IMG/VR virus record: IMGVR_UViG_3300035698_015009
Location: 1 to 48,993 of that record
Length of the DNA stretch: 48,993 nucleotides
Reading direction: 5' to 3' (one strand)
Source: a virus
A program made the position numbers and the translations under genes. This document shows positions 28,629 through 48,472 of this stretch, one piece after another (the first letter of the stretch is position 1; every line of letters starts with the position of its first letter). Under the pieces are notes generated by a model. It had not been told where the DNA came from. It searched no databases and saw only the letters and a program-made list of their open reading frames with translations.

Positions 28629-29186
28629 ATGAAAGAAATACAACAAAGAACTTCTAAAGAAATAAGAAAACCTATAAAATTCATAAAAAATATATTAGGG
28701 AAGAATTTAATTGGTGCAGAAGTAGGTGTTTACAGAGGAAAACATGCAAAACAAATGCTTAGTTTTTTATCACTAAAAAAATTGTATTTAATAGATGATT
28801 GGAAAGTGAAATGGTATTTATGGATTAAAGAACAAAATGCTTATCAAGTTCAAAAAAATAAAAAAGATATATATGACAAAATTGTAAAATATTTTTCTAA
28901 ACATCCCAATACTGAAATTATAAAAGAACCTTCAGTACTAGCTTCTCAAAGATTTAAAAACAATAGTTTAGATTTTGTATATATAGATGCTAATCATAAT
29001 TATGACTGTGTGTTAAATGATTTATATGCTTGGAAAGAAAAGGTGAAAAAAGGTGGGGTTTTATGTGGTCATGATTATAATTGGTCTGAAGTACAAAATG
29101 CTGTTAAAACATATCTTAAAACACATACTAGAAAATTAAAAACTTATAATAGTGTTAGAGGAGATTGGTGGTGGGTTATTTCGTAA
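28629..29186 (+). CDS. SAM-dependent methyltransferase (Methyltransf_24/TylF-like), 185 aa
   Basis: Class I methyltransferase: motif I GAEVGVYRGKHAKQ, a later acidic strand LYLIDDW, motif IV-like LDFVYIDANHNYDCVLNDLY, and KKGGVLCGHDYNW. The VYIDA-HxY and 'GG.L.GHDY' signatures are typical of Methyltransf_24 enzymes that methylate sugar hydroxyls (for example in rhamnosyl or capsular glycans). It is the last gene of the + strand tail module, just before the terminator. With the glycosyltransferases on the opposite strand, methylation of a glycan is the most likely job (inference). Confidence 0.75.
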   Translation: MKEIQQRTSKEIRKPIKFIKNILGKNLIGAEVGVYRGKHAKQMLSFLSLKKLYLIDDWKVKWYLWIKEQNAYQVQKNKKDIYDKIVKYFSKHPNTEIIKEPSVLASQRFKNNSLDFVYIDANHNYDCVLNDLYAWKEKVKKGGVLCGHDYNWSEVQNAVKTYLKTHTRKLKTYNSVRGDWWWVIS

Positions 29187-29215
29187 TTAACCCCCCTCTA
29201 AAAGAGCAATAAACC

Positions 29216-29274
29216 GGGCTAATAAGCTTACTGAGCATACTTTCTGCTCAAAAAGCTACTTAGCCCTGTTTTTT
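29216..29274 (+). terminator. Large three-tier terminator hairpin between convergent gene blocks
   Basis: GGGCTAA (29216-29222) pairs with TTAGCCC (29260-29266). Inside, AGCTT pairs with AAGCT, then GAGCA with TGCTC around a TACTTTC loop. TGTTTTTT follows. It lies where the + strand tail genes and the - strand accessory operon converge, so it should end the tail transcript. There is no equally good U tract for the - strand. Confidence 0.8.
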
Positions 29275-29305
29275 GTTTAAATTCGTTAAAACGCTTATAA
29301 TAGTG

Positions 29306-29524
29306 CTATTTGAATCGTATTTTGAATACATGTTTAGCTGTATTATCATCCAAAAATATACCATCATACACAATAATTTCTTCTGTACCATTAGTTCTGG
29401 TTATTTTATCTCCTTTATTAATCAACATAAAGTTCTCATTTTTCATTACGAATAAATTAGCACTTGAACAACCTGATAAAAATATACATGATACAATTAA
29501 CAAACTAATTAACTTTGTTTTCAT
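29306..29524 (-). CDS. Small lipoprotein, 72 aa
   Basis: RBS GGAGATAAA, ATG 29524. Signal peptide MKTKLISLLIVSCIFLSGC with a lipobox (LSGC) at Cys19, then SSANLFVMKNENF and a short beta-rich domain containing 'KGDKITRTNGTEEIIVYDG'. It should be lipid-anchored on the outer side of the cytoplasmic or outer membrane. Candidates are an outer-membrane spanin-like lysis protein or a superinfection-exclusion lipoprotein. Ends in TAG. It is the last gene of the - strand operon. Confidence 0.7.
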   Translation of the reverse strand: MKTKLISLLIVSCIFLSGCSSANLFVMKNENFMLINKGDKITRTNGTEEIIVYDGIFLDDNTAKHVFKIRFK

Positions 29525-29532
29525 TTTATCTC

Positions 29533-29709
29533 CTATAGGTTCATTCCGTCATTAATAGCATCTATTATATCTTTTCTACTTCTTTTCTTAAAGCCTTCAT
29601 TCATCTTTGTAACAGCTTTTTTCTTTTTTTCTCTTTTATCCTTATCAATTTCCAACCATCTTGTAACAAATAACATAACTGTTTTTAATGCAAGTAATAT
29701 AGCAGCCAT
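29533..29709 (-). CDS. Small N-terminally anchored basic protein, 58 aa
   Basis: ATG 29709 behind AGGAGAATAAAA; stop TAG. The product MAAILLALKTVMLFVTRWLE starts with a hydrophobic helix, followed by a strongly basic segment (DKDKREKKKKAVTKMNEGF) and a helical end IIDAINDGMNL. One membrane segment with a soluble basic tail. Its position directly before a lipoprotein gene is reminiscent of inner/outer spanin pairs, but it is short for an inner spanin; function unproven. Confidence 0.5.
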   Translation of the reverse strand: MAAILLALKTVMLFVTRWLEIDKDKREKKKKAVTKMNEGFKKRSRKDIIDAINDGMNL

Positions 29710-29711
29710 TT

Positions 29712-30397: not shown

Positions 30398-30402
30398 AGT
30401 TA

Positions 30403-30963
30403 TTATAATTTTCTTTCCTTTTTAGTATGTCTATTTGCTTGTAAATGAGAAATGCTCTTATAATTGTTTAAATAGATTATAGATTTTTTAAGAATTTTTA
30501 TAGAATCTTTAGCATAGCCAAGTACAGAATTACAATTAATACACAATAATCCTCTTATTTGATTTGTAATATGATTATGGTCTACATGCAAAGAAATATT
30601 AGTATCTGATTGGGGTATTCCACAAATAGCACAGCAACCATTTTGTTTATTAAATATTATTTTATATTGCTCTAAAGTAATATTGTATTTTTTTATCAGT
30701 TGATAATTTTTTCTTTTTTCTGGATATTTTTTATGATAGTTTTCTCTATATTTTTTTTCTTGTTCTTTATGATTTTCATAATAGTTTTTTCTTTGCATTT
30801 GATATTTTTCTTTATATTTTTTACGATTTTTTTTATGACGTTTATCTATTTTTTCTTTGTTATTTTTATAATATATTTTGTCATAATTTAAATGTTTTAT
30901 TTTCCACTCTTTTAAATATTTTTTATACTTTTCTGGATGTTCATTCCTCCATTTTTTATTCAT
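30403..30963 (-). CDS. Recombination endonuclease VII-like HNH nuclease, 186 aa
   Basis: The N-terminal half is a Lys/Tyr/Glu-rich helical stretch (MNKKWRNEHPEKYKKYLKEW). The C-terminal half matches the endonuclease VII family: LIKKYNITLEQYKIIFNKQN, GCCAICGIPQ, LHVDHNHITNQIRGLLCINC, NSVLGYAKDSI. Two CxxC pairs bind zinc and the VDHNH is catalytic. T4 endonuclease VII resolves branched DNA, but many phage relatives, including this type with Lys-rich N-terminus, are free-standing homing-like nucleases. It lies 6 bases from the next gene. Confidence 0.82.
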   Translation of the reverse strand: MNKKWRNEHPEKYKKYLKEWKIKHLNYDKIYYKNNKEKIDKRHKKNRKKYKEKYQMQRKNYYENHKEQEKKYRENYHKKYPEKRKNYQLIKKYNITLEQYKIIFNKQNGCCAICGIPQSDTNISLHVDHNHITNQIRGLLCINCNSVLGYAKDSIKILKKSIIYLNNYKSISHLQANRHTKKERKL

Positions 30964-30988: not shown

Positions 30989-31609
30989 TTATAAATTATT
31001 ATTATGTTTTAAAATTCTGGATATCTGGTGATGTGCGATTACAATATTATTACATTTTACGTAAGGTTCTTTTCCATTAGGCATTGTTTTTATATAACAA
31101 TATTTTAGAGGTAATTCAAAAACTTTAATATCTTTTCTTTTTTCTAATATATCTTCTAATATACTTTGTTCCCAACTACTACCATCTTGAGCTTTTGCGT
31201 ACCATTCTGTACATAAATCTTTTACTATTTGTCGATTTCTAAAAAACATAGTCCCTGAAAGAAGTTCAGTAGTCTTGTCTTTTGGACGATTATACCAAGT
31301 ATTCCAATGAAGAGTATGAAATGCTAAGTCGTATTCTTCAGGAATTTCGTTGAAAATTTGAGGATATTGTTCTATTGTAGCATCTGCATCTACAAACACT
31401 ATATTGTCTTTTCCTTCATCTAATAATTGAAGAATAATTAAAGGTTTTTGAGCGGTATTTTTGTTCCAATGATGAAAGTTTTGAGCTTTAATAATTTCAA
31501 GAGGTACTTTTTTTTCTAGTTTATTAATAGAAGCTATTAAGTATTCATTAATTACTTCTTGATAAGGTGAATTCTCGGTGAAAAAGGCATAAACTGTAAA
31601 AGGTCTCAT
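30989..31609 (-). CDS. DxD glycosyltransferase, 206 aa
   Basis: Start taken at ATG 31609 (MRPFTVYAFFTEN), overlapping the upstream stop by ATGA with RBS GGGAGAAAA. Features of a small GT-A nucleotide-sugar transferase: KPLIILQLLDEGKDNIVFVD followed by ADATIE (the VDADA acts as DxD metal site), HTLHWNTWYNRP, 'LLSGTMFFRNRQIV', SSWEQSILEDIL, and the closing 'NNIVIAHHQISR'. Similar enzymes transfer sugars to glycans or proteins. Acceptor unknown. Confidence 0.65.
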   Translation of the reverse strand: MRPFTVYAFFTENSPYQEVINEYLIASINKLEKKVPLEIIKAQNFHHWNKNTAQKPLIILQLLDEGKDNIVFVDADATIEQYPQIFNEIPEEYDLAFHTLHWNTWYNRPKDKTTELLSGTMFFRNRQIVKDLCTEWYAKAQDGSSWEQSILEDILEKRKDIKVFELPLKYCYIKTMPNGKEPYVKCNNIVIAHHQISRILKHNNNL

Positions 31610-31851
31610 TTTTTCTCCCATTTATCAATTTGGTCTAACATGTCAAGTGAGTGATAGCAATCCATAGGAAGTTTTACTGCTTCTGAACCATCATACCAAC
31701 AAGTAACTACAAAGTCTTTAACATTCTCTGGTAATTTGGGATTTCTTATACAAAAACAGCATGGTCTTTCACCAGAGGGTTGACCAGGAAATTTGGCTAA
31801 TCCTGCTGAATGACAACATCCATAACATGTAAGATTTTTATCTTTTTCCAT
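31606..31851 (-). CDS. Cys-rich small protein, 81 aa
   Basis: Start ATG 31851 overlaps the previous stop (TAATG) behind AGGACAGAA. Cysteines: NLTCYGCCHSAG, RPCCFCIRNP, VVTCWYDGS, MDCYHS. The pattern suggests a zinc- or metal-binding fold. It also has 'PGQPSGERPCCFC', typical of short phage proteins of unknown function. No catalytic motif. Confidence 0.5.
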   Translation of the reverse strand: MEKDKNLTCYGCCHSAGLAKFPGQPSGERPCCFCIRNPKLPENVKDFVVTCWYDGSEAVKLPMDCYHSLDMLDQIDKWEKK

Positions 31852-32240
31852 TATTTCTGTCCTATTTTTATTTTTTTCCATATAAACTCGTTAAAAATAT
31901 ATGTTATATGTTTAATACCAATATATGTAATTGTAATAGCAGTCATCTGTTTCCAACTACCAGTAATTAAATAAGTTATTGTTCCAAGTATTATATTACC
32001 TAGTAAAGTTTCATATGTTATACATTTAACAATTTTTCTTTTTAATCCGGTAAAATTTATTTTTAACCATATTCTTTCATGAAAATAAAACACAAATAGA
32101 AATACTCCGTGATGTATAAATGTAATTAATCCAGTTTGTACCCAATGTTTAGTATAGAAATATGTAACTGCACCTAATATTACTACTCCCATTATTCTCC
32201 AAATAATACTCTTAATAGCACTTCTTATTTTAGTTTCCAT
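31851..32240 (-). CDS. Double DUF2061 membrane protein, 129 aa
   Basis: Two tandem copies of the DUF2061 motif. Copy 1 (residues 5-60): KSIIWRIMGVVILGAVTYFY ... 'ITFIHHGVFLFVFYFHERIW'. Copy 2 (68-125): 'TYETLLGNIILGTITYLITG' ... 'ITYIGIKHITYIFNEFIWKK'. Four predicted membrane helices. The HERIW and NEFIW ends are diagnostic of the family. Such proteins sit in the cytoplasmic membrane; function not established. Start overlaps the lipoprotein gene upstream. Confidence 0.75.
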   Translation of the reverse strand: METKIRSAIKSIIWRIMGVVILGAVTYFYTKHWVQTGLITFIHHGVFLFVFYFHERIWLKINFTGLKRKIVKCITYETLLGNIILGTITYLITGSWKQMTAITITYIGIKHITYIFNEFIWKKIKIGQK

Positions 32241-32413
32241 TTTACCCCCACTGTTACTTCATTACTTTTCCAATCATTTCTGGGATTCATATCTGTAGCA
32301 ATAGATAATTCATCTGGTACTAAAGTCGTTTTTTTATCAAGACCTAATCCAGCACATCCAGAAAATAAAGTTAGTAAACATAAAATTGTTATTAATTTGT
32401 AATACTTAATCAT
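32225..32413 (-). CDS. Small lipoprotein, 62 aa
   Basis: ATG 32413 (MIKYYKLITILCLLTLFSGC) is preferred to the ATG two codons upstream because of spacing to AAAGGAAG. Lipobox FSGC, Cys20, then AGLGLDKKTTLVPDELSIAT and a short beta end VTVGVKWKLK. Lipid-anchored, perhaps outer-membrane. It overlaps the start of the DUF2061 gene. Confidence 0.65.
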   Translation of the reverse strand: MIKYYKLITILCLLTLFSGCAGLGLDKKTTLVPDELSIATDMNPRNDWKSNEVTVGVKWKLK

Positions 32414-33374
32414 TAGCATCTTCCTTTCTGATTCTTGTTTTAATAGCAGTACTACTTTGTGTAGGGTAATAGGGTAAAGTAATAACTTTGCCCCCCCATT
32501 TTTTCATTATTTTTTTATATTTTTTTATATTATTCATATTATGACTAGAAGATTCTATTAGAATATTAGGTTTAATTTTCTTTATATTATTTTCTGGAGA
32601 ATAAGTATCTTGTAAAATTACAGCATTTACATATTTTAATGATTTTATAACTTTAGCTCTTTCTTCATATGATATAATGGGTTTAGATTTTTTCTCCATA
32701 ATTGCTTTTTTAGATAATACTCCAACATAAAGAAAAGTCCCATAGTTTTGAGCTTTTTTAAAATATTTTATATGACCTACATGTAATATATCCCCACAAG
32801 CATAAGTGTAAACAATTATTTTATTTTTATTATAATTTTTTTTCTTCAATTTATATTTTTTATCAAACCATTTTAAATAATTATCTATTTCTTTTTTACC
32901 TAGTTTTTCCATAAGATATTCAAAAGTCTTTTGATGAAGAAGAGAATGTTTTTTTCTAGATAAAAGTATAGTTTTTTCGGAATTTTCTTTTAAATAAATA
33001 TGATGTTTAACTGGATTTTCTCTCATTTTCCTTTTTGATTCTTCAGTGTGTTTTTTTCCTTTCATTCTTGATGCTCCATAGAAATGACTCTCTTTCCCTT
33101 TTATTCCTTTATTCCAAGCTTTTTGTCCTTTATGAGATTCACTTAATTTTTTTACATGTTCTCTAGATAATATTTTATTTTTCCAATAAGATGTTTGTAA
33201 TCTTTTTTTGTTTTTGTTCCATGGAATCATTCCTTTTTTAAATCTTCCTTCAGAACTCTTTCTCTCTTTTTGAGATTTGCTCATTTTTTCTATAGTTTTT
33301 AAAGATAATTTTCTACCTTTCATATGTCTTCCAGTTTTCATATTTTTAGTTCTTTTATAAATTCCTTTAGGCAT
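32406..33374 (-). CDS. HNH homing endonuclease fused to a cytidylyltransferase, 322 aa
   Basis: Residues 1-110 are NUMOD3-type segments (RHMKGRKLSLKTIEKMSKSQ, SREHVKKLSESHKGQKAWNK, KKHTEESKRKMRENP). Residues 112-160 look like the compact HNH seen with them (PVKHHIYLKENS ... SRKKHSLLHQKTFEYL). From about 185 a nucleotidyltransferase domain begins: KIIVYTYACGDILHVGHIKY, then KPIISYEERAKVIKSLKYVN, 'ILQDTYSPENNI' and SSTAIKTRI. HVGH and the SST-IK-R end are catalytic signatures of the glycerol-3-phosphate/choline-phosphate cytidylyltransferase group. The join is in frame with no start at the boundary. It may supply an activated CDP-alcohol for the LicD enzymes. Confidence 0.8.
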   Translation of the reverse strand: MPKGIYKRTKNMKTGRHMKGRKLSLKTIEKMSKSQKERKSSEGRFKKGMIPWNKNKKRLQTSYWKNKILSREHVKKLSESHKGQKAWNKGIKGKESHFYGASRMKGKKHTEESKRKMRENPVKHHIYLKENSEKTILLSRKKHSLLHQKTFEYLMEKLGKKEIDNYLKWFDKKYKLKKKNYNKNKIIVYTYACGDILHVGHIKYFKKAQNYGTFLYVGVLSKKAIMEKKSKPIISYEERAKVIKSLKYVNAVILQDTYSPENNIKKIKPNILIESSSHNMNNIKKYKKIMKKWGGKVITLPYYPTQSSTAIKTRIRKEDAND

Positions 33375-33864: not shown

Positions 33865-34177
33865 TTTTTTTAATTGTCCCGAACTTATATTTTTTCTCTG
33901 AAAATTTCAATAAATCTTTTGATAACCGTTTTGCATTTCTTTGACTTAATATAACTCCATCAAGAAAGGGAATTCCAGTTTTTATAAGATACCAAGCCCA
34001 TCTAAATCGTTGCAAAAAAGATAACGGATATCTACCTACAAACCCATGTTGAAAGAAAGCTATATCTATTAGTGGCAATCCTTTATCTTCACTATATTCG
34101 TAACTCATCATAATTCCTTCGGTATGACAATTACATTCATAATATTTCATCCAAGAATCTTCTTGATATTTTTTCAT
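33842..34177 (-). CDS. Hypothetical 111 aa protein, conserved phage type
   Basis: ATG 34177 with GGAGG upstream; an internal ATG (MKYYECNCHTEG) is a possible alternative start. The body has EYSEDKGLPLIDIAFFQHGF, then 'LQRFRWAWYLIKTGIPFLDG' and 'VILSQRNAKRLSKDLLKF'. The hydrophobic strand, 'RfrwaWyliktG.pf.D.viLs...A..L' run is found in small phage proteins near metabolism genes; its function is unknown. Ends TAG inside the next gene. Confidence 0.5.
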   Translation of the reverse strand: MKKYQEDSWMKYYECNCHTEGIMMSYEYSEDKGLPLIDIAFFQHGFVGRYPLSFLQRFRWAWYLIKTGIPFLDGVILSQRNAKRLSKDLLKFSEKKYKFGTIKKNEKEKKL

Positions 34178-34564
34178 TATATACCTCCATTATTATCTTA
34201 GTATAATAATCTTTCCAATATTTTTTGTTAAAATTAGCTCTACCATTACAACTTCTACAAACAGTAATTAAATTTGTTTTCTTACAATTCTTTTTATCAT
34301 AGTCTATATGATGTATTATTAATACTTGTCCTAAAACAATAATATGTTCTTCTTCTGTCATATCACAGTTTTGGCAAGTATAATTATCTCTTTCACGAAT
34401 TTCTAATTTTAAACTTTCGTTAAATATTTCGGGATATTCTTCAAATGATTTACCTCATTCTCTTAAACACTTACTAGTTGCAAACTGACAAGTACCACCT
34501 TTTTTTAATTCTCCAACAGGAAAATAAATAGCACCAACTGTTCCTGTATGATATACTATCTTCA
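34137..34564 (-). pseudogene. Broken composite: short gene start joined to a truncated HNH endonuclease
   Basis: From ATG 34564 the frame reads MKIVYHTGTVGAIYFPVGEL, KKGGTCQFATSKCLRE, then an in-frame TGA (about 34454-34456), and continues as GKSFEEYPEIFNESLKLEIR, ERDNYTCQNC, HHIDYDKKNCKKTNLITVCR, SCNGRANFNKKYW. The second part is the C-terminal half of an HNH homing endonuclease of the type at 44890-45591, without its N-terminus. The first 36 residues are unlike HNH proteins and may be the remains of a target gene. The only ATG for the HNH part (34361) would exclude the first CxxC pair. Confidence 0.65.
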
Positions 34565-34566: not shown

Positions 34567-35286
34567 TTATTTTTCTCCATAATCTACAATTGTATCAAAT
34601 CCTTCTTCAATTGTGGGATGTTCATATCTTCTATTAAAATTTTCCCAAACTGTTTCCCAAATTTCTTTAGTTTGATTTGCAGGGTTATTCATTCTTCTTT
34701 TTACAGATTCTTCTTTAGAAAGTTTAGGCATAACTAAAGCTTTAACTTTATACCCTTCTTCTTTTCCTGCTTGAATATAAGATTCTCTAGAAACTTTTGA
34801 TATATTTACTTCATCAACAAGTATATTAATTCCTAATTTTAGAAACTTTTTAAACTGTTCAAATGCTGTTACTTTTATTATAGGTTCATATTTTGGATTA
34901 AATATATATTCGCCAGCACCTATAGCAAATCTCAAATCATCTCTAGATATAATTACATACCCATCTTTTTGTAATTTTTTTGTTATAGTACTCTTACCAG
35001 AACCTATATTTCCTATCATTATTATTACTTGTTTTTTTGGAATAACTAAAGTATCAAAATCTAAATAAAGATAATAGGAATCCAATGTTAAAACTTTATC
35101 CAATTCTTTCTGTTGTTCATTATTCAAAGAACTCCAAAAATGTTTTATTAAGTTTATACTATCTTGATATTCTTTTGAAGATTTAAAACATTCTTTAGAA
35201 CAATATCCCTTACTTTTAATAAAATCATAATCACAACTACCACAATTATGAAATTTTGCTAAACAAGATTTACATTCTGTTCCCAT
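34567..35286 (-). CDS. Zinc-finger polynucleotide kinase-like P-loop protein, 239 aa
   Basis: N-terminal zinc module CKSCLAKFHNCGSC and GYCSKECFKSSKEY. Kinase domain from about residue 85: Walker A MIGNIGSGKSTITKKL, then VIISRDDLRFAIGAGEYIFN, 'NILVDEVNISKVSRESYIQA', and KEESVKRRMNNPANQTKE (lid arginines). This layout matches the AAA_33/T4 Pnk kinase group that phosphorylates 5' ends of DNA or RNA; there is no phosphatase domain. Possible role in tRNA or DNA end repair. The stop of the upstream GT10 gene overlaps its ATG (TAATG). Confidence 0.75.
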   Translation of the reverse strand: MGTECKSCLAKFHNCGSCDYDFIKSKGYCSKECFKSSKEYQDSINLIKHFWSSLNNEQQKELDKVLTLDSYYLYLDFDTLVIPKKQVIIMIGNIGSGKSTITKKLQKDGYVIISRDDLRFAIGAGEYIFNPKYEPIIKVTAFEQFKKFLKLGINILVDEVNISKVSRESYIQAGKEEGYKVKALVMPKLSKEESVKRRMNNPANQTKEIWETVWENFNRRYEHPTIEEGFDTIVDYGEK

Positions 35287-39451: not shown

Positions 39452-40440
39452 ACAGACACTCCAAATTCCTTTGTCAATATATTCATTAATTGATTTATTC
39501 GAACTTTATGATTATGATTTTCTCTAACATATTTCATTCCTTTTTTTGCAATAGCAATAGTATAAGATTTATCATTTACTATTTTTCTAGCTAATTGTAC
39601 TACATCTGAAAAATCTTCTTTATATGCAACATATGAATCATCAGGAAATAATTTTTGTAAACCATATCTATCTGATTTATTAGTAAATAATAATCCTCCA
39701 GAACTCATAATTTCAAACATTTTAGCAGGTGTATGATTAACTGCTGATGACCCATTCAAATAAGCTCTAAAACTTTGTAATGTTTTAATATATCTTTCTT
39801 CTCTATGATGATTACTAAAATCTACTAAATAATTATGAGGTCTCAATAATCTTTTTACTGCATTTCTATAAATATAACATCCTGTATATCCTCCCATATA
39901 ACATATTTTGTTTTCTTTTTCAATTACTCTCTCATTAGGAGAAAATATAGAAGTATCTACAGAAAATGGGAACCATAAAGATTTAACTTTTCCTTCTCTA
40001 ATTGATTGAGAATAATGACGTTGAAGAATTAAATCTATCCCAATGTCAGCGTACCAATCATCATTGTCTTCCCAATGATAGTCTTCTTCTATAACTACTT
40101 TAGGACAATCATATTCAGTAAAATCTCTTGGCATCCAAGTAGGGCTATGAGAATGAGGTAAATTATCTGGGTTTCTTGGAGGTAAATATTTTTCAAACAT
40201 TCTACTTTTAGTATTTAATATAACTATATCAAAATCGTAAGCTTTTTTTAAGTCTTTCATTGTTATTGTTTCTTCCCAAGGCATTACAACAAATTCAGGG
40301 TATTCTTCATGCATTCTATGACCATACCCTTTAACACTTGCTCCTGAATAAACATTCATCCACTTAGCAAAATCTACATGTAACCAATGGTCAAAGGCAT
40401 AATCTGGAGTGTATCTGTAAAACCACAATATACGCATCAT
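39448..40440 (-). CDS. CgeB-like glycosyltransferase (GT-B, Glyco_trans_1_2), 330 aa
   Basis: RBS AAGGAGAAT, ATG 40440. First half: MMRILWFYRYTPDYAFDHWL and 'DFDIVILNTKSRMFEKYLPP', with YDCPKVVIEEDYHWEDNDDW. Second half has the CgeB/YkvP pattern: 'NKICYMGGYTGCYIYRNAVK', 'SFRAYLNGSSAVNHTPAKMF', EIMSSGGLLFTNKSDRYGLQ, 'LARKIVNDKSYTIAIAKKGM'. The 'pAKmFEimssGglL' motif binds the nucleotide of the sugar donor. Such enzymes modify spore, capsule or glycoprotein sugars; the acceptor here is unknown. Confidence 0.78.
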   Translation of the reverse strand: MMRILWFYRYTPDYAFDHWLHVDFAKWMNVYSGASVKGYGHRMHEEYPEFVVMPWEETITMKDLKKAYDFDIVILNTKSRMFEKYLPPRNPDNLPHSHSPTWMPRDFTEYDCPKVVIEEDYHWEDNDDWYADIGIDLILQRHYSQSIREGKVKSLWFPFSVDTSIFSPNERVIEKENKICYMGGYTGCYIYRNAVKRLLRPHNYLVDFSNHHREERYIKTLQSFRAYLNGSSAVNHTPAKMFEIMSSGGLLFTNKSDRYGLQKLFPDDSYVAYKEDFSDVVQLARKIVNDKSYTIAIAKKGMKYVRENHNHKVRINQLMNILTKEFGVSV

Positions 40441-40871
40441 ATTCTCCTTGCTGGTTTATGAATTTTACAATGACATCCTACACAGGTACTAACTGTGTTT
40501 GATTTTACCCAACATAATTCAGGATAATTTTTTTTATTTTTTCGATGATGAATAGTTTTTGCTGTTTTTTGACAATAACAACATATAAATTTATCTCTAT
40601 TTAATATTTCTTCTCTAAACTTCAACCATTTTTTCCAGTGATGTATTAATCCATTTTGAATAGCCTCTAATTCTGTATATTTTCTTAGTTTTTTAGCTAC
40701 CAAAGGTCTCATTTTACCAAACAATGATTTTCTAATTTTTTCTTTTGTTTGCTGAGTGTGTTTTTGACCTGTCATACCTACATGATTTTCTCGTAGTTTT
40801 TTCTTAGTTTCTTCAGTGGGATGTTTACCAGTATTAGCTTTTGCTATTTTATCTCGCCATTCTTTATTCAT
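40437..40871 (-). CDS. NUMOD3-HNH homing endonuclease, 144 aa
   Basis: Start ATG 40871 chosen for AGAGGAAATT upstream. NUMOD3 repeats: WRDKIAKANTGKHPTEETKK, HVGMTGQKHTQQTKEKIRKS, LFGKMRPLVAKKLR. HNH core: EEILNRDKFICCYCQKTAKT, IHHRKNKKNYPELCWVKSNT, STCVGCHCKIHKPARRI. Intact-looking and compact. Inserted between a 51-residue gene and the CgeB-like gene, whose ATG overlaps its stop. Confidence 0.85.
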   Translation of the reverse strand: MNKEWRDKIAKANTGKHPTEETKKKLRENHVGMTGQKHTQQTKEKIRKSLFGKMRPLVAKKLRKYTELEAIQNGLIHHWKKWLKFREEILNRDKFICCYCQKTAKTIHHRKNKKNYPELCWVKSNTVSTCVGCHCKIHKPARRI

Positions 40872-40885
40872 ATTTAATTTCCTCT

Positions 40886-41041
40886 TTACCAAGTGAAAGC
40901 TTTTTTAAGAAATTCTGCTCTAGACAATTTAGTTTTTATCCACTTGTTATTTTTATTAAGTTTATAATGTTGTCCATGAATCATAGCTTCATCAATTATT
41001 TCATATCCAATAATTCCTGTTTTTAATTTTCTTTTTTTCAT
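40886..41041 (-). CDS. Hypothetical 51 aa basic protein
   Basis: ATG 41041 overlaps the upstream stop (ATGA). Product MKKRKLKTGIIGYEIIDEAM, IHGQHYKLNKNNKWIKTKLS, RAEFLKKAFTW. Basic, no motif recognised. It is followed 14 bases later by the HNH gene and supplies its RBS, so it may be a short accessory gene or a remnant. Confidence 0.45.
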   Translation of the reverse strand: MKKRKLKTGIIGYEIIDEAMIHGQHYKLNKNNKWIKTKLSRAEFLKKAFTW

Positions 41042-41835
41042 TTATACCAAACTTTTTCTATGGTCATATCTTTTGTTTCTATTAATGTAGGACCTGATTC
41101 TTTTCCTAATTCTGCAGCTACTAATCTATGTGTAACTAGTTCAACATTATTTCTTGTTTTGTTTAACATATCATATCTCTCAGATTTAAAAGGAGCCCAG
41201 TCATGATACTGATGTTCCATGTTTAAAGGCATCATAGGGAGTGGGTATTCACTATTATTACCTAAATTTTTATCGAACCATGACTGAACTCTCCACCACA
41301 TATCGTTGTCTTCTGCTCCATATCCAAAATAATTCTCGTTCATTCCTCCGAGAGTATTAAAGAAGAAGTCTTTGTAACAAAACCATGCTCCTCCTACTGC
41401 TTGTAAATAAGAAGAACTTGTTAATCGTTCTATGGGATTATCTTTTCCTACTGTTAATTTGAGATATAAGTATGCACAGAAAAATTTAAATTGTGGCTGG
41501 GCATCTCTGTAAGTAAATACTTCTCCTAAATGCATAATTTTCAGTTTACTATCTGCATCAATAACTAATAAACTATTAGTATTAGCTTTTCTAGCAGCTA
41601 CATTTATAATCCAACTTTTATTAAATTCTCCATCATCTCTTAGTACTATATGATTATTAACTCTTTCATGACCAGTAAAAGTTGCTTTAGCATCATTAAA
41701 AACTTCTTCAACTACAGTTAGTTCAAAAGGTTGAAATAATTGTGCTTTTAAGCTATCTAATAATACTTTTAAGGCACGTTCTCTAACTTCTCCACCATAT
41801 GTATAAGGTATTATTACACTAAATTGGGTGTCCAA
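41038..41835 (-). CDS. GT-A glycosyltransferase with GT7/GT27-like C-terminal motif, 265 aa
   Basis: Start taken at TTG 41835: AGGAGG lies six bases before it and the protein then begins MDTQFSVIIPYTYGGEVRER. Domain order: GT2-like start (VIIPYTY ... LLDSLKAQLFQPFELTVVEE), NKSWIINVAARKANTNSLLV, VIDADSKLK (metal-binding DxD), AVGGAWFCYKDFFFNTLGGM, NENYFGYGAEDNDMWWRVQS. The last segment is the GT7/GT27 (galactosyltransferase or GalNAc-transferase) 'GGmNE.f.GyG.ED.D.w.R' motif. It overlaps the zinc-ribbon gene by 22 bases. Confidence 0.8.
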   Translation of the reverse strand: MDTQFSVIIPYTYGGEVRERALKVLLDSLKAQLFQPFELTVVEEVFNDAKATFTGHERVNNHIVLRDDGEFNKSWIINVAARKANTNSLLVIDADSKLKIMHLGEVFTYRDAQPQFKFFCAYLYLKLTVGKDNPIERLTSSSYLQAVGGAWFCYKDFFFNTLGGMNENYFGYGAEDNDMWWRVQSWFDKNLGNNSEYPLPMMPLNMEHQYHDWAPFKSERYDMLNKTRNNVELVTHRLVAAELGKESGPTLIETKDMTIEKVWYK

Positions 41836-42020
41836 TCCAATCCTCCTTTTCTTCCAACTTGTTTTCCACAAAAGTTACATAATTTAACAAAATATCCACT
41901 TCCATGAGCAGGAGCCCACTGTTCTTCTATCCAATCAGATACTTCTTCATGAGGACAAAGAAATTGAAGTTCATTTATTTCGCTTTTATGTCTGTTTCTC
42001 ATTTCATTTATGTTTTCCAT
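41814..42020 (-). CDS. Zinc-ribbon small protein, 68 aa
   Basis: LQFLCPHEEVSDWIEEQWAP, then SGYFVKLCNFCGKQVGRKGG: a CPH ... CxxC set that can bind one zinc. Acidic helix at the N-terminus (NINEMRNRHKSEINE). Often found in phage operons with the 'CPHEE' start; function unknown. ATG lies inside the end of the PnuC-like gene. Confidence 0.5.
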   Translation of the reverse strand: MENINEMRNRHKSEINELQFLCPHEEVSDWIEEQWAPAHGSGYFVKLCNFCGKQVGRKGGLDWTPNLV

Positions 42021-42223
42021 TTAAACCACCCTATTGTATTTATAATTATGAATAAAAATTGTAATCCAACAATGATAAACAATTCAGAGATAGAATATAA
42101 ACAAATCAGAAGAACATTGCCTACTATCCAAATAGGCCAACACCATCTGTTTTTGTATGCATTTAATATTAAACCTATAGCCATTGTAATAGCAGCTATT
42201 ATCTGTAATGTTATAAGGTTCAT
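42008..42223 (-). CDS. Short PnuC-like membrane protein, 71 aa
   Basis: Three hydrophobic helices: LQIIAAITMAIGLILNAYKN, WCWPIWIVGNVLLICLYSIS, LFIIVGLQFLFIIINTIGWF. The 'WPIWIVGN...YS...l.....F.IiNtiGWfkW' pattern matches PnuC-type transporters of nicotinamide riboside or mononucleotide, here in a short form of under half the usual length. Short PnuC homologs occur in phages and may help NAD supply; alternatively a transporter subunit forming oligomers. ATG overlaps the upstream stop. Confidence 0.65.
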   Translation of the reverse strand: MNLITLQIIAAITMAIGLILNAYKNRWCWPIWIVGNVLLICLYSISELFIIVGLQFLFIIINTIGWFKWKT

Positions 42224-43134
42224 AAATTATCTATTACTGTTTTTATGCGAGGCCATACCTGATAGGTATTCAAAAGTAAATGTCTTGCTTCTTTCATATC
42301 ATCTATATGTTTTTCTCTGAAATTACTGTTTATAATATCTAATATATATTCTGGAGTATGATTTGGATTAAACAAATCTAAATATCTAAAAGAATTTTCT
42401 GGTAAATATTTATGTATATTAGTTCCTCCATAATAAATAGGCATTGCCCATAATAACATAGCATCAAAGAATCTTTCTGACCAATAATTTTCACATATTC
42501 CCATTTCTGGACTTCTACCCATATCAAATTCTAAAGAATAATTATATGGTTCTAAAGCTCTTTTTTTTCCAAACCAATATAGTTTTTCATAATTAGTATG
42601 AGATTCTTGTACTCCAGCAGGTCCTTTATAACTATTCAGTAAACTATCTTCCCCTTCTCCAACTACTATTCTTCCATACATATCTACTTTAGTAGGATGT
42701 TTACTACAAAAATCTGTCATAAATTCTATTCTTTTTCTATGATAATCAAACACTCTAGTATTACTTAATATACAAGTTAAATCTTTTCCTTTTTTAAAAT
42801 ATTGTAAACTAGATAATTCATCATAAGTTGCTTCTAGCCACCATTCTCCAAACCCAAAAGTTTTAGCTAAATCTAATTTAGCAACATAACCTCCTCTATC
42901 TTCAAAATCACTATACCCTGTACAACTAGTTGGATGTCCACCAATATATATTGCTTTTTTATTATCTACTTTAAATCTAGTTTCATCAATAACTATATGA
43001 AAATCTGCTATATCTGGATTTGTAACTCCCTATAAATCTTTCCATATTCCTCTGGAATTAGGAGTCATTTTAGAAAAAGTTTTCAGTAAATTTTCATGTG
43101 ATATTCCGCTTTGAAAAAAACAAATTTTAGTCAT
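42220..43134 (-). pseudogene. GT10 glycosyltransferase C with in-frame amber stop at codon 35
   Basis: From ATG 43134 the frame reads MTKICFFQSGISHENLLKTF, SKMTPNSRGIWKDL, TAG (43030-43032), then GVTNPDIADFHIVIDETRFK. The frame is otherwise open to 42220 with all GT10 features: YIGGHPTSCTGYSDFEDRGG, YNYSLEFDMGRSPEMGICEN, YWSERFFDAMLLWAMPIYYG. Position 35 aligns exactly with Thr or Glu in the two intact paralogs, with no gap, so a single base change or readthrough explains it. A downstream ATG (42753) gives only a half protein. It may still be made by amber suppression. Confidence 0.75.
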
Positions 43135-43867
43135 ATTGTTGGTTTATATTTTCTTTACTTTCAAATTCTAAAGGTTTAATTATCTTAGAAAATTCCTCAT
43201 ATTTATCTTTTTTACAGTAAGCTCTACTAATCATATTGTGGTCTGTGCATAATTCTACAAAATTATTTTCTTTTATTAATAACTTTTCAACTTGTTTTCC
43301 TAAAGCTTCGTTCCCATATCGGATGAATAATTCTACTGAATCTGCAACATGATTTTTAGGATAAACAGGATAACCACACATATTAACCACTATTGGTTTA
43401 CTATGATTGTCATTTAAAACATATTTAACATTTCCCATGGCTAAAGTTCCATCTAGTAAAAATTTTTTAAGTTGAGAAAAATCTTCTAAAACACTAAAAT
43501 TTGTGTATCCCTGTTTTGATAAAAAATAAATAAATCTTCCTGCTCCAGCACAAGCATCTTCTATCAATATGTTCTTATTATCTGCATATAAAAGATTTAT
43601 TAAAAGTAAACCAGTATAGTTAGGTGGATATATCATCACTCTATAATCTAATTGATTATAATTTAATTGATTTCTTTTTCTTAATCTTGATTTTACAGGT
43701 TCATCAATAAGGGTATTCTCTAATTCAGTAAATTTTTCTGGGTCAAACCACCATTCAGATGCTTCCCCACTATAATTTCCATATATATCCCAAGCTTTAC
43801 ACAAGTCTTTATTATACTTCATTAATTTATTAAAAATATCTTTTCTTTTAAATATGTTTATTTTCAT
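43127..43867 (-). CDS. Putative methyltransferase-like protein, 246 aa
   Basis: RBS AAAGGAATT. N-terminal part AWDIYGNYSGEASEWWFDPE (the dWd/WWF pair recurs in small phage methyltransferases); Rossmann motif NILIEDACAGAGRFIYFLSK with the following acidic strand NFSVLEDFSQL, and a later strand KPIVVNMCGYPVYP. Motif I is 'DACAGAGRF'. The post-motif layout is unusual, so substrate is not predictable. It overlaps the GT10 pseudogene at the end. Confidence 0.5.
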   Translation of the reverse strand: MKINIFKRKDIFNKLMKYNKDLCKAWDIYGNYSGEASEWWFDPEKFTELENTLIDEPVKSRLRKRNQLNYNQLDYRVMIYPPNYTGLLLINLLYADNKNILIEDACAGAGRFIYFLSKQGYTNFSVLEDFSQLKKFLLDGTLAMGNVKYVLNDNHSKPIVVNMCGYPVYPKNHVADSVELFIRYGNEALGKQVEKLLIKENNFVELCTDHNMISRAYCKKDKYEEFSKIIKPLEFESKENINQQYD

Positions 43868-44031: not shown

Positions 44032-44229
44032 TTAAGTTGAGTAAGTTGCAATCAAAGACATAAGTTTAAAAACAATATGTAAATAGACAATGCTAGAAAT
44101 TATTGCAACACAAGCAAATACATTTCTTTGATTTTTTAATTGGTTAATTCTTATTTCCATTGAAATTGAATTTTCAAAATCTTCTTCATTTGTGGTAAAA
44201 ATTTTACTTATTTGTTTATTAATTCCCAT
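44032..44229 (-). CDS. Small C-terminally anchored membrane protein, 65 aa
   Basis: Start ATG 44229 (MGINKQISKIFTTNEEDFEN) behind GGGGAAA. Residues 1-35 soluble and charged; residues 38-60 hydrophobic (FACVAIISSIVYLHIVFKLM). One predicted membrane helix at the C-terminus. Function unknown. Confidence 0.5.
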   Translation of the reverse strand: MGINKQISKIFTTNEEDFENSISMEIRINQLKNQRNVFACVAIISSIVYLHIVFKLMSLIATYST

Positions 44230-44921
44230 GATTTTCCCCAATATAAGTCTTTTTTCTGTCTACGCTTATAAGTTAGCATATCATTACTTTTAATTTCATT
44301 TCTTGGTATTTTATGAGTTTCATCCATTTCTCGCTTATAGAAGTTTGCAGAATGATGAATAATATTAGCTTCTCTACAAAGCACAAACTTTTTTATAGAT
44401 TGAGCATATTCTAGTACTTCTTCATCTTGATAAAAGAATTTATAATCAGGGCAACATACTTGTCTATCTGGAAATCGTTCTATAAACTTCTTACCTATTG
44501 CACATTGTCCATTTTCTCTCCAGACAGCTTCTGTCATTAGAGGATATATTTGAGAAATTCCAACCATTCCATCTTTATCTGGAAAGTTCTTTAGAAAGGT
44601 TTCATTTAATTTTTCTAAACAATTTGGTAACAGTTCTACATCATCACATAAAAATACAAATAAGTCTTCTATTTTGTCAAAATAATCTTTAAAAAATAAA
44701 TTATTACATCCTATTATATAACCATGTTCAAGATTAATAACACTATGTATTTTATTATTATTTTTATAAGTTTCTTCTACCCATTTGTAAGTTTTTATAT
44801 CATTATTATCAGCCATTATATATAATTCCCAATCAATGTGGGTTTGTTTTTCTATAGAAGTAATTACTCGTGGTAATTTTTTTATTCTATCAAGAGTAGG
44901 AATTAAGATTGTAAATTTCAT
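44208..44921 (-). CDS. GT2-family glycosyltransferase, 237 aa
   Basis: RBS AAGGAG, ATG 44921. Typical GT2 start MKFTILIPTLDRIKKLPRVI, 'TSIEKQTHIDWELYIMADNN', D at the strand end, then 'GYIIGCNNLFFKDYFDKIED', LFVFLCDDVELLPN (CDD as metal-binding DxD), and a C-terminal part with VCCPDYKFFYQDEEVLEYAQ. Soluble, cytoplasmic. Initiates or extends a glycan. The upstream HNH gene ends inside its first codons. Confidence 0.75.
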   Translation of the reverse strand: MKFTILIPTLDRIKKLPRVITSIEKQTHIDWELYIMADNNDIKTYKWVEETYKNNNKIHSVINLEHGYIIGCNNLFFKDYFDKIEDLFVFLCDDVELLPNCLEKLNETFLKNFPDKDGMVGISQIYPLMTEAVWRENGQCAIGKKFIERFPDRQVCCPDYKFFYQDEEVLEYAQSIKKFVLCREANIIHHSANFYKREMDETHKIPRNEIKSNDMLTYKRRQKKDLYWGKSWELINK

Positions 44922-45591
44922 TAATAATCTCCTTAAAATGTTTTTTCCAGAGTTTTCTATTAAAGTTAACTCTAGTATTGCATTGTTTACATAATGTTAT
45001 TAGATTTGTTTTTTTACAGTTTTTCTTATTATAATCTATATGATGAATTAATAATATTGTAGCATATAATAAAATATGTTCTTCTTCAGTACAATTACAT
45101 AACTGACAAGTATAATCATCTCTTTTTCTGATTTCTCGTTTCAATATAGTATTAAATTCTATAGAATAAGGTTCAAATGATTTCCCACCTTGCCAATTAG
45201 GATTAAGTTTAGCAAGTATTTTATATCCATTTCTATAATTGGGATGGTTTATTCCAGTTTTGTCTTTACAAAAAGCACATTTACAGTTCTCTTTATGTTT
45301 TCTTCCTAATTGTTTCAATCTTATTTTCTCTCTAACTTCGGGTCTTTTAGCAGAATTTTTATTTTCTAATTGAGATAATTGCAACTTTTTTCTATGAATC
45401 TTTGTAGGACTATACTTCCAATAATGAATTATTTCTTTGTTATGACGTACTTTAATCTTATATTTAATCATATTTTTTTTTATAGTAGAAGAAGAACAAT
45501 ATAATTCTTTAGCTATCTGATTCATAGATAATTTGTGACAAATATATTTTTTAATTAGCAATTTTTTGTCAATTTTTATAGATTTCTTCAT
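44890..45591 (-). CDS. HNH homing endonuclease with N-terminal HTH, 233 aa
   Basis: HTH at 20-45 (LSMNQIAKELYCSSSTIKKN), then a linker, PEVREKIRLKQLGRKHKENC, zinc module CKCAFCKDKTGINHPNYRNG, NWQGGKSFEPYSIEFNTILK, and the HNH core REIRKRDDYTCQLCNCTEEE, LLIHHIDYNKKNCKKTNLIT, LCKQCNTRVNFNRKLW. The last 11 codons overlap the GT2 gene in another frame and contain its RBS. Intact-looking. Confidence 0.88.
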   Translation of the reverse strand: MKKSIKIDKKLLIKKYICHKLSMNQIAKELYCSSSTIKKNMIKYKIKVRHNKEIIHYWKYSPTKIHRKKLQLSQLENKNSAKRPEVREKIRLKQLGRKHKENCKCAFCKDKTGINHPNYRNGYKILAKLNPNWQGGKSFEPYSIEFNTILKREIRKRDDYTCQLCNCTEEEHILLYATILLIHHIDYNKKNCKKTNLITLCKQCNTRVNFNRKLWKKHFKEIINEIYNLNSYS

Positions 45592-45605: not shown

Positions 45606-46250
45606 TTAATCATCGTCATGGTGATTATATTTTTTCTTATTATTTGGAATATCCCAGTCTTCATCATAAAAATGAACTAACCAATCTTCTATATAATTAG
45701 GTGTAGGAAAAATAATTCCTTTAAATTTATAAGTACCTAATTTATCATAGAATTTAGCAGGATGTTTTAAAGCCCATCCAGACCTTTTTTCATCATAGAT
45801 ATAAAAAGCTTCTTTTTTATTTTTCTTTTTATTATAGATAAGTTTTCTATCATACCACCAACCTTCTATTTTTTCTCCTTTTCTAATAAAAACAGAATCA
45901 TAATAAGGTGCTAATGTAGGAAGTACTACAGTGTGTTTAATAGCTTCAGGAGGTATAAAAAAACCTATTTTTCTAGCATCTTCATAAGCAGCATAAATTT
46001 TCTCTCTATCTCTCATATCTAACCCTATATCAGCATCATCATCCCATTCTATAAAATTATTTTCTCTATAAACTCCTAACATAGTACCATGAGATAACCA
46101 CCATCTAATTTTATGTTTGTTTAATATCTCTCGTAAATCCATTAAATTTCTAAACATTACATCTCTGTCCATTGGTCTTGATAAACCACCTTCTTGACCA
46201 TGTTCCCAGATAGGATTTTTAATAGTAAATGTTTTGTCTTTTATATTCAT
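45606..46250 (-). CDS. LicD-family phosphotransferase A, 214 aa
   Basis: LicD core: MDLREILNKHKIRWWLSHGT, 'MLGVYRENNFIEWDDDADIG', LDMRDREKIYAAYEDA. The GT-L-x-R..fI.wDdD.D motif is the nucleotidyltransferase-fold active site. LicD enzymes move phosphocholine or related phospho-alcohols from a CDP carrier to cell-surface sugars. C-terminal part 'YDKLGTYKFKGIIFPTPNYI' fits the family. Neighbouring cytidylyltransferase genes could supply the CDP donor. Confidence 0.82.
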   Translation of the reverse strand: MNIKDKTFTIKNPIWEHGQEGGLSRPMDRDVMFRNLMDLREILNKHKIRWWLSHGTMLGVYRENNFIEWDDDADIGLDMRDREKIYAAYEDARKIGFFIPPEAIKHTVVLPTLAPYYDSVFIRKGEKIEGWWYDRKLIYNKKKNKKEAFYIYDEKRSGWALKHPAKFYDKLGTYKFKGIIFPTPNYIEDWLVHFYDEDWDIPNNKKKYNHHDDD

Positions 46251-46256
46251 AAATAG

Positions 46257-46784
46257 TTATATCCTCTCTTCAAAAATTACACCTTGTAATTCTAATAATG
46301 TTATTTGTTCTTGTTTACATATATGTCTAGTTTCGTCAATAAGTTTATTAAAAAGACAATTACTTTTTTGAACATCTAAATATAAATCTTCTTTGTCTAA
46401 TAGAATAGTTTTTGTTTTTGCAGTTTTTGTTAAATCTATTATAGTATCAACTCCTATAACAGTTTCTATTTTAGGAACTATAGTTATATGTTTTGGAATA
46501 AGTCTTCGTAAATGTAACATAGTAGTTGTATTTTCAGCATTAGAGATAGCAAAATATTTAATATGGTTATATTTTTTCATCATAAGTAATGCATCGTCTA
46601 ATTGTAGAATAGGGGTTGGTGGTTTTGTTCTTCCCTGTGGGAAATCTAAAAATATATCTTGTGTAATATCTTGTATAATACTCTCTAATTCTTTTACAGT
46701 TTTAACCCATGCCATATTAACTCTTATTACAGCATTTTTTGGAAGTGGCATTCTTCCTTTTACATTATTCGATATTATTATCAT
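46257..46784 (-). CDS. Pyruvate-kinase/aldolase-like TIM-barrel protein, 175 aa
   Basis: Short barrel-like protein: 'AVIRVNMAWVKTVKELESII', DIFLDFPQGRTKPPTP, 'IKYFAISNAENTTTMLHLRR', 'ITIVPKIETVIGVDTIIDLT', ILLDKEDLYLDV. The KIE..iGv..i motif and the LD-xPQGR-T segment resemble pyruvate kinase (K-IE; DtkGPeiR) or HpcH-type aldolases. The full enzyme is 2-3 times longer, so this is only the central barrel. Role in making a phospho-metabolite for the LicD/cytidylyltransferase pathway is conceivable. Confidence 0.4.
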   Translation of the reverse strand: MIIISNNVKGRMPLPKNAVIRVNMAWVKTVKELESIIQDITQDIFLDFPQGRTKPPTPILQLDDALLMMKKYNHIKYFAISNAENTTTMLHLRRLIPKHITIVPKIETVIGVDTIIDLTKTAKTKTILLDKEDLYLDVQKSNCLFNKLIDETRHICKQEQITLLELQGVIFEERI

Positions 46785-47187
46785 TTTTTCCTATTTTCTT
46801 TATTATATTACTTGTTGAATAAGCTTTACTATATCCTAACTTGATTAATGCTCCTCCAAGTTCATGAATGGTTTCTGTTCCTGGAATATATTCCCAATCA
46901 TCTCCTTTAACTAAGAAATCTATTTTTCCCTCATATGATTTTAAATAACTAGAGGGGTCGTATTTATCTTGTAATATAACTTCGTCTACACAACTTAAAC
47001 TCTCTATAAGAAAAGCTCTATCTTTTTGTGTTTGAATTGGTCTATCTGGACCTTTTAATTCTTTGATTGCATCATCTGCTACTATTCCTACTATTAAATA
47101 ATCTCCTAATTTTCTTGCTCTTTCTAAAAGTTTTATATGCCCTGGATGAAGTAAGTCAAAAGCACCGTAGGTATAAATTATCTTCAT
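46765..47187 (-). CDS. Cytidylyltransferase (glycerol-3-phosphate / choline-phosphate type), 140 aa
   Basis: MKIIYTYGAFDLLHPGHIKL starts with the strand and HxGH (HPGH) catalytic motif; then 'ERARKLGDYLIVGIVADDAI', 'GPDRPIQTQKDRAFLIESLS', 'CVDEVILQDKYDPSSYLKSY'. TagD-like size. It makes CDP-alcohols from CTP. The pairing with two LicD genes suggests a phosphocholine- or phosphoglycerol-type decoration. The ISSTxIR-like end is reduced to TSNIIKKI. ATG overlaps the upstream nuclease stop (ATGA). Confidence 0.82.
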   Translation of the reverse strand: MKIIYTYGAFDLLHPGHIKLLERARKLGDYLIVGIVADDAIKELKGPDRPIQTQKDRAFLIESLSCVDEVILQDKYDPSSYLKSYEGKIDFLVKGDDWEYIPGTETIHELGGALIKLGYSKAYSTSNIIKKIGKNDNNIE

Positions 47188-47882
47188 TTAATAGCTCCAA
47201 TTTTTTTAAGTTTTTTATATTGATATACTTTTATGTTGATATTAGAATATAATTTTCTAAATAGTTTAAATTTCTTTTTTGCTTCTGTTCTCCAATATCC
47301 TTTTATTTCAATCCATTCCTTTGTTTTAGTAAGATAGAAATCTGGTCTATAAGTACACTCTCCTAAATCAAAAGCTTTTGGTTCATATTTCCATTTTATT
47401 TTGTTCTTATCACACCATTTAGCATAAGCTATTTCCCACGAACTTCTCATCCAAATTCCTTTATAATAATCTCCTTTATAATATTTATTCTTACTTTGAC
47501 ATTTTTTACCAAAATTCCCATTATTTTTCCCCTTTATTTTATTTGATATATTAGGTCTTTTTTTACCTTTGAATATAATTATATTTTTACATGATGAACA
47601 TACTTTTTTACCATAAATACCACTAAAGGAACTTATTTTTTTATTACATATTTTACAATGATATTTTTTTGAATATCTTCCATCAATATATCTACCATTT
47701 TTTATTCCTTGAAGTTGTCCATTTCTAGGGCCCCCAAGTCTAGTACTAATATTAAATTTAGATAATCTTCTTGAAATCGTTGCTATACTACAACTCAGCT
47801 TTTCTGCAATATAATCCATTGTTTTTTCTTCTACAATATATTTTTGATATAAAATTTTTTTAGTAAGCTTTTTATTATTCAT
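47184..47882 (-). CDS. HTH / zinc-finger / PD-(D/E)XK homing-type endonuclease, 232 aa
   Basis: HTH (TMDYIAEKLSCSIATISRRL), zinc module HCKICNKKISSFSGIYGKKV with CSSCK, NUMOD-like KGKKRPNISNKIKGKNNGNF, then a nuclease domain GIWMRSSWEIAYAKWCDKNK, 'IKWKYEPKAFDLGECTYRPD', FYLTKTKEWIEIKGYW. The PD (YRPD) and ExK (EIKGYW) motifs are those of PD-(D/E)XK nucleases. Modular build mirrors the HNH genes but with a different catalytic fold. It sits between a LicD gene and a cytidylyltransferase gene. Confidence 0.82.
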   Translation of the reverse strand: MNNKKLTKKILYQKYIVEEKTMDYIAEKLSCSIATISRRLSKFNISTRLGGPRNGQLQGIKNGRYIDGRYSKKYHCKICNKKISSFSGIYGKKVCSSCKNIIIFKGKKRPNISNKIKGKNNGNFGKKCQSKNKYYKGDYYKGIWMRSSWEIAYAKWCDKNKIKWKYEPKAFDLGECTYRPDFYLTKTKEWIEIKGYWRTEAKKKFKLFRKLYSNINIKVYQYKKLKKIGAIK

Positions 47883-48472
47883 TTTGGTTTAATAGTTTTT
47901 CCCAGTATATAATCACTTCTACGGTCAGTAATATGATAAGGAGTTTTCCAATCTCCATAAGTTATTTCAAGAAATTTTTCTGGTTCTGCAGGTACTAAAA
48001 ACTTTTTATCTAAAAAATCTATTTCTATAGGCTTATCAAAAAAGGTTTTTGGATATCTAACTCCTATGTCATATATATATTCATCTTTTGTAGGTAAAAA
48101 CCACCATATATCAATTCTTTCTCCATCTTTAATAAAGAAATGGTCATGTAATGGACATTCATTTTTATCTGGAACATAAAAACCTTTATTTCGTAAAGTT
48201 TTTACTACATTAACAACTTTTTGATGGTCTTTAGCATAGCAAGCTACATCTGCATCAGAATCGTAGGCAATGAAACCCTTATCTCTAATAGCTCCTAATA
48301 AAGTACCAAAAATCAATATAAAAGGAATATTTGCACTATCCATTGCTTCTTTAAATACAAGCATATTTGAAGTCATAACTCCAATATTCATATTAGAGCC
48401 TTTGATTCTTACTCCCTTTTCCCAAGGTAAATGAAAAGGGCTTTTTAAAGGTACTATTTGTCCAGGTTCCAT
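47879..48472 (-). CDS. LicD-family phosphotransferase B, 197 aa
   Basis: Core 'FKEAMDSANIPFILIFGTLL', GAIRDKGFIAYDSDADVACY (G-T-L-x-G...fI..DsDaD active site), then DHFFIKDGERIDIWWFLPTK and 'FLEITYGDWKTPYHITDRRS' (Y-GDW, a family hallmark). RBS GGAGTAAAA. Transfers a phospho-alcohol to a glycan like LicD A; both sets of catalytic aspartates are present. Confidence 0.8.
   Translation of the reverse strand: MEPGQIVPLKSPFHLPWEKGVRIKGSNMNIGVMTSNMLVFKEAMDSANIPFILIFGTLLGAIRDKGFIAYDSDADVACYAKDHQKVVNVVKTLRNKGFYVPDKNECPLHDHFFIKDGERIDIWWFLPTKDEYIYDIGVRYPKTFFDKPIEIDFLDKKFLVPAEPEKFLEITYGDWKTPYHITDRRSDYILGKTIKPK

Follow-up and report, generated by a model that had tools for sequence, protein, structure and literature searches.

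What does a phage do with some twenty genes for making and attaching modified sugars? The question is raised by IMGVR_UViG_3300035698_015009, an entire IMG/VR virus record of an uncultivated phage (48,993 bases, AT-rich and without tRNA genes; this whole stretch is hereafter called the window), in which such genes form a module from 28.6 to 48.5 kb, adjoining virion genes with polyserine tracts. A preliminary description took the module for a dedicated system that glycosylates these serine (Ser) tracts and adds phosphocholine- or phosphoglycerol-type groups. Here we argue, with moderate confidence, that it is a cassette for glycan synthesis and transfer with which the phage, still inside the infected cell, modifies virion proteins of its own, in the capsid and/or the tail; virion-directed decoration is thus retained from the earlier account, whereas polyserine as the dedicated target is not.

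Position of the module and its likely target

The module is present in seven further virus records. A search with a three-sequence GT10 profile gave two, G001 (IMGVR_UViG_3300035698_019895, 86 kb) and G002 (IMGVR_UViG_3300035698_035346), both from metagenome 3300035698, an Antarctic lake co-assembly (PMC8542988), and a LicD profile scan yielded five more with a GT10 relative, namely G096 (3300017917_002096), G097 (3300035670_000388), G098 (3300022555_003201), G099 (3300035670_000841), and G100 (3300033148_002732). In G099, the terminase gene (phrog_38) is followed on one strand by a portal-like gene, the major capsid gene, which is of SU10 type (Pfam E 1e-69), a small open reading frame (ORF), the module, and virion-type genes, the final module gene overlapping the next gene by 4 bases, with tail genes after that gene. 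From its terminase onward, G097 is laid out in the same way, without a recognised capsid gene, while G100 carries module genes at both contig ends, one part near the capsid gene, which would be the arrangement of G099 if the genome were circular. The module abuts tail genes both in the window and in G096. Late-operon placement on one strand, as in G099, favours virion proteins as the substrate.

The best-surviving alternative, which we nevertheless consider rather unlikely, is that the enzymes alter the host surface (capsule, lipopolysaccharide, or teichoic acid), for instance to exclude other phages or to avoid re-adsorption. LicD and cytidylyltransferases act on bacterial host polysaccharides, small transmembrane proteins and a DUF2061 protein occur in the region, and a licD/ispD insertion in Flandersviridae gut phages was suggested by its authors to modify host teichoic acid (PMC8008677). 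However, the module of G099 (and by layout those of G097 and G100) is inserted, in the same orientation, between the major capsid gene and the virion genes that follow, a late-expressed position, and neither a flippase, a polymerase, nor an initiating lipid-sugar transferase was detected among the proteins scanned. Likewise, the glycosyltransferase (GT), LicD, and methyltransferase proteins of the module have no transmembrane-like segments, and no membrane glycosyltransferase or flippase partner of the kind known from gtr-type seroconversion or surface-polymer cassettes was detected among the proteins scanned, although the small transmembrane proteins do occur.

Several points weigh against virion decoration. 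The module of G001 and G002 adjoins replication genes and not virion genes, a position that speaks for host-surface modification, and in the window and G096 it lies on the strand opposite to the virion genes, so that co-expression is not implied there. Moreover, the gene following the module in G099 is called a head-tail connector solely from its position and weak PHROG matches, and LicD together with cytosolic glycosyltransferases might just as well use precursors of the host surface as substrates. The sequences show which genes are present, their conserved order in relatives, their place among virion genes, and the lack of Ser tracts in relatives; the virion target, the donor sugars, and the phospho-group are inferred. 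On balance, the module probably serves virion glycosylation rather than a change of the host surface.

Independence of the module from polyserine

A second alternative, that the whole set including LicD is dedicated to glycosylating and phospho-decorating polyserine tracts, now appears improbable. In its favour, module and Ser tracts adjoin in the window, where a Methyltransf_24 methyltransferase gene (28629-29186, + strand) linked to Ser tracts lies 25 bp beyond the end of the final gene with such a tract. Furthermore, the polyserine phage G027 also has a DUF2061 protein, a cytidylyltransferase, and LicD, its first two being 63 % (DUF2061) and 47 % (cytidylyltransferase domain) identical to their counterparts in the window. 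In whole-record Pfam counts, for which families were chosen after the clustering result described below and in which records overlap, polyserine records were enriched in Methyltransf_24 (15/43 vs 4/47, p=0.004) and GT9 (8/43 vs 0/47, p=0.002).

Comparison with G096 argues in the other direction. This phage has the tail genes of the window in the same order, from the tail-tube-like protein (52.5 % identity over 394 residues) through the tape-measure gene, and carries the module at the same location, yet it has no Ser tract, its longest Ser run being 3. The tail-tube-like protein of the window (7356-8618, + strand, preceding the tape-measure gene) corresponds to the G096 protein plus a C-terminal Ser tail of ~28 aa, which is compatible with a gain in the window or a loss in G096. 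No polyserine tracts occur in G097, in G100, or in G099, which has a single Ser run of 5, nor in G098; the latter has SGYSG/SGWSG-type repeats in two large proteins (L410, 2491-3906 and 7965-10517). As G096 to G100 combine the module and virion-type genes without polyserine tracts, the module is independent of polyserine. G001 and G002 cannot test the link, since no virion genes were recognised in either.

Co-occurrence of LicD and polyserine was not significant in either direction. LicD was found in 2/43 polyserine records against 0/47 (p=0.23), and polyserine near 4 of 63 independent viral LicD groups against 1 of 84 controls (p=0.16), sought in fetched DNA in which the LicD loci were on average twice the control length. 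GT10 occurs in no polyserine record besides the window. The idea of a LicD-containing set directed at polyserine is therefore not borne out, neither by G096 nor by the co-occurrence of Ser tracts and module genes across phages that had been proposed as its check; relatives that possess the module without Ser tracts, named beforehand as one half of a refuting observation (the other half being an altered host polysaccharide), do exist, including one that shares the tail genes of the window.

Glycosylation of DNA bases, or another substrate that is neither protein nor surface, is very improbable: some phage glycosyltransferases, of the T4 type, modify DNA, but to our knowledge none of the known pathways for DNA-base modification includes LicD, GDP-mannose 4,6-dehydratase, DegT, a sulfotransferase, and several methyltransferases, and no base-modification genes turned up, though no specific search for them was made.

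Polyserine virion proteins as a separate phenomenon

The Ser tracts themselves, rightly pointed out beside the module in the preliminary description, comprise 540 Ser among 684 residues, encoded by interleaved AGT (213), TCA (183), and TCT (120) codons. Since TCN and AGY codons are two substitutions apart, their interleaving marks the tracts as real protein features, and a mixed-codon Ser pattern matched the window four times but none of 100 shuffles. Besides the tail-tube-like protein, four virion proteins on the + strand carry them: one with internal and C-terminal tracts (14639-15739), one with three Ser-tract linkers (15744-18626), whose C-terminal ~150 aa match a polyserine protein of another phage (L020, 51 %), one of distal tail type with a tract of ~90 aa (18795-22316), and one with a terminal Ser tail (27231-28604).

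In viral contigs, a mixed-codon Ser pattern matched at least 119 stretches and, among the matches listed, 110 loci had an ORF with Ser runs of at least 6. ORFs of these loci were clustered against 120 random viral loci, a comparison that is partly circular, as the case loci themselves supplied the families, and whose controls were not centred on virion genes. Again among the matches listed, the top recurrent family consisted of BLAST-linked methyltransferases, partly fused to GT9 and including the product of 28629-29186 (16 independent case groups vs 0 control groups), followed by GT9-like and GT-A families (6 vs 0 groups each); any of these families occurred in 17/86 case groups and 0/83 control groups. 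GT2 was not enriched in polyserine records (7/43 vs 5/47, p=0.54). In a clade matched by its terminase (~31 loci, many near-identical), polyserine lies upstream of the terminase in all, and GT9, GT-A, or Methyltransf_24 upstream in most lineages with enough upstream DNA, L302 being without. One polyserine protein upstream of a terminase (L288, 6178-9099) has 973 aa of which 88 % are serine, and is conserved in several near-identical virus records. In the GT-A family beside polyserine genes, DAD is invariant, and the AlphaFold model of this family (mean predicted local distance difference test, pLDDT, 64.6) matches GT8 enzymes, namely glycogenin, LgtC, LARGE1, and GlyE.

Among uncultivated phages, polyserine virion proteins are widespread, accompanied by a GT8-fold, GT9, and Methyltransf_24 set that differs from the LicD/GT10 module; of the module in the window, mainly the 28629 methyltransferase belongs to this set. 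The nearest relative of that methyltransferase among GenBank viruses is from the Lokiarchaeota virus WyrdV1 (38 %; L323, 4821-5516). A mycobacteriophage homologue, 24 % identical and not accompanied by any annotated GT, was left out of the evidence. Tentatively, and with less than even confidence, we propose that proteins of this kind represent a hitherto undescribed but widespread group of phage glycoproteins. Their long tracts, in tail and other virion proteins, would be the acceptors of the GT8-fold/GT9/Methyltransf_24 cassette encoded with them, in analogy to the glycosylation of serine-rich repeat proteins in bacteria, and the window would combine such tracts and its 28629 methyltransferase with another, larger cassette of LicD/GT10 type that acts on the capsid or the tail. 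Module and polyserine tracts, joined in the earlier reading, are now separate and each testable alone, and polyserine phage proteins merit study of their own.

Gene content and proposed pathway

Virion and tail genes occupy the + strand of the window up to 29.2 kb, among them the tape-measure protein (10044-14639, matching tail tape-measure families), and genes thereafter lie on the - strand. All gene types named in the preliminary description are present, and its "two or three" methyltransferases are three genes of methyltransferase type. Pfam assignments exceed the gathering cut-off for all named module genes except 43127-43867. Apart from 28629-29186, the module, entirely on the - strand, comprises a Nucleotid_trans glycosyltransferase (GT-A, DxD; 30989-31621) with relatives in G002 and G098, the DUF2061 membrane protein (31851-32240), whose G027 homologue stands beside cytidylyltransferase and LicD, and a cytidylyltransferase-fold domain (CTP_transf_like) following a NUMOD3 homing-endonuclease N-terminus (32406-33374). 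Further along are two GT10 genes (PF00852; 35286-36209 and 36629-37555), a Methyltransf_11 methyltransferase (37778-38347), a CgeB-like glycosyltransferase (Glyco_trans_1_2, a CgeB-type domain; 39448-40440), a GT7C/GT2-like glycosyltransferase (Glyco_transf_7C; 41038-41871), a third GT10 (42220-43134), a methyltransferase-like protein with a methyltransferase-like glycine motif and no Pfam match (43127-43867; several copies in G001, one in G002), and a GT2 (Glycos_transf_2; 44208-44921). A first LicD (45606-46250), a 175-aa barrel protein (46257-46784), a CTP_transf_like nucleotidyltransferase (46765-47187), and a second LicD (47879-48472) complete the set. In addition, 34567-35286 encodes an AAA_33 kinase domain, nearest to polynucleotide kinase models, which probably has a repair function rather than one in glycan synthesis.

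The three GT10 proteins score 32.9, 35.2, and 26.0 bits (cut-off 23.9) and match fucosyltransferases in the PDB at E 3e-6. The site of the alpha-1,3-fucosyltransferase motif FENS...EK is conserved in position and reads FDMG...ER; the donor may be other than GDP-fucose. Both LicD proteins exceed the profile cut-off (PF04991; 55.0 and 46.6 bits vs 22.6) over a match of ~50 residues only, and their DxDxD motif is intact, with D71, D73, and D75 invariant.

Nucleotidyltransferase, barrel, and LicD are consecutive in the window, G001, G097, G098, and G099. For the barrel, a model built on an alignment of two sequences (pLDDT 72.8) matches pyruvate kinase and lyases of the CitE type, suggesting such a fold; the other four structure models were poor. 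Of the solved structures, ethanolamine-phosphate cytidylyltransferase (E 4e-26) resembles the nucleotidyltransferase most, followed by glycerol-3-phosphate cytidylyltransferase among others, and NCBIfam prefers HldE-C below cut-off, which places the nucleotidyltransferase in their superfamily; phosphocholine as such, as suggested before, finds no support. We infer that a phospho-compound activated with cytidine diphosphate (CDP) would be made and then transferred by LicD.

The module of G001 is collinear with that of the window (~51-88 % identity), and upstream of it lie genes for a GDP-mannose 4,6-dehydratase, whose score exceeds the equivalog cut-off (440.6 > 415), FkbM methyltransferases, sulfotransferases, and a DegT aminotransferase. 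It also has a DNA polymerase III beta-clamp-like gene, recognised by eye, between LicD and GT2 (L003, 1993-3147). G002 has, in addition, a nucleotidyltransferase-LicD fusion and an adenosine phosphosulfate (APS) kinase (L004, 5779-6225), with a sulfotransferase at 2576-3169; such a phage may make phosphoadenosine phosphosulfate (PAPS) and sulfate its own glycan. In the pathway we propose, phage dehydratase and DegT aminotransferase, whose genes, seen in relatives, probably lie just off the window contig, would yield a GDP-6-deoxy- or GDP-4-amino-6-deoxy-hexose; short glycans would be assembled by the GT10, GT2, GT7C, CgeB-like, and GT-A enzymes and capped by methyltransferases, in some relatives also by sulfotransferases; and the triad of nucleotidyltransferase, barrel, and LicD would produce a phospho-substituent in CDP-activated form and attach it. 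Polyserine would not be the specific acceptor.

Relatives of GT10, LicD, and the tail protein were not found by tblastn among 50,697 GenBank phages, nor did single-protein searches with these three match viral contigs. As neither GT10 nor the polyserine-phage terminase had a match in 84,980 GTDB genomes, no host is assigned.

The third GT10, homing endonucleases, and inteins

The third GT10 had been described as broken. It is indeed interrupted by a single in-frame TAG at codon 35 (43030-43032), with the Pfam match on the downstream ORF (42220-42753), but it is not truncated: the full frame of 304 codons, from 42220 to ~43134, is 80 % identical over its whole length to an intact G001 copy with Gln at the TAG site. 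Recoding of TAG is unsupported, because TAG terminates 5 of 50 genes in the window.

About nine homing-endonuclease-like ORFs and one intein (in 10044-14639) occur within the 49 kb. Six of the ORFs lie in the module region (30403-30963, 34137-34361, 38335-39015, 40437-40892, 44890-45591, and 47184-47882), where the collinear G001 module lacks them, and three on the virion-gene side (3604-4278, 4632-5432, and 5432-6088). In 32406-33374, the NUMOD3 N-terminus is in frame with the cytidylyltransferase domain, which is free-standing in G027; a fusion or an internal start are both possible. What looked like a tape-measure match in G002 proved to be an intein.

Comparison with known systems

In Gram-positive bacteria, serine-rich repeat proteins are Ser-rich acceptors whose own glycosyltransferases are encoded next to them, as with GlyE and PsrP. 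The GT-A family next to polyserine genes in other phages is predicted to fold like GlyE and further GT8 enzymes; unlike there, this family is not in the window, and the acceptors here would be cytosolic virion proteins instead of cell-wall adhesins. A GtfA/GtfB-type core O-GlcNAc transferase had no match among the module proteins scanned. With Flandersviridae (PMC8008677) the module shares a phage-encoded LicD, but there two genes lie in the replication module, in some members only, without a large GT set. Chlorovirus PBCV-1 (PMC7826918) likewise encodes several enzymes of its own for an unusual capsid N-glycan, yet it is a eukaryotic algal virus with other GT families and sugars, and with solved glycan structures.

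Among the closest precedents are the mycobacteriophages Che8, Corndog, and Myrna, whose glycosyltransferases were proven to glycosylate virion proteins (Freeman et al. 2023, as cited in PMC12363180 and PMC11600133). There, too, the transferases are phage-encoded, an O-methyltransferase gene stands beside GT genes in cluster O phages, and capsid and tail-tube proteins are the target, whereas here a virion target is only proposed. Yet the set described here is far larger, with GT10, the LicD-nucleotidyltransferase triad, and, in relatives, sugar-nucleotide synthesis and sulfation. If our reading is true, some uncultivated phages hold near-complete private glycan pathways beside their capsid or tail genes, whose scope (dehydratase, aminotransferase, sulfation, methylation, and phospho-substitution) would far exceed that of the few mycobacteriophage transferases.

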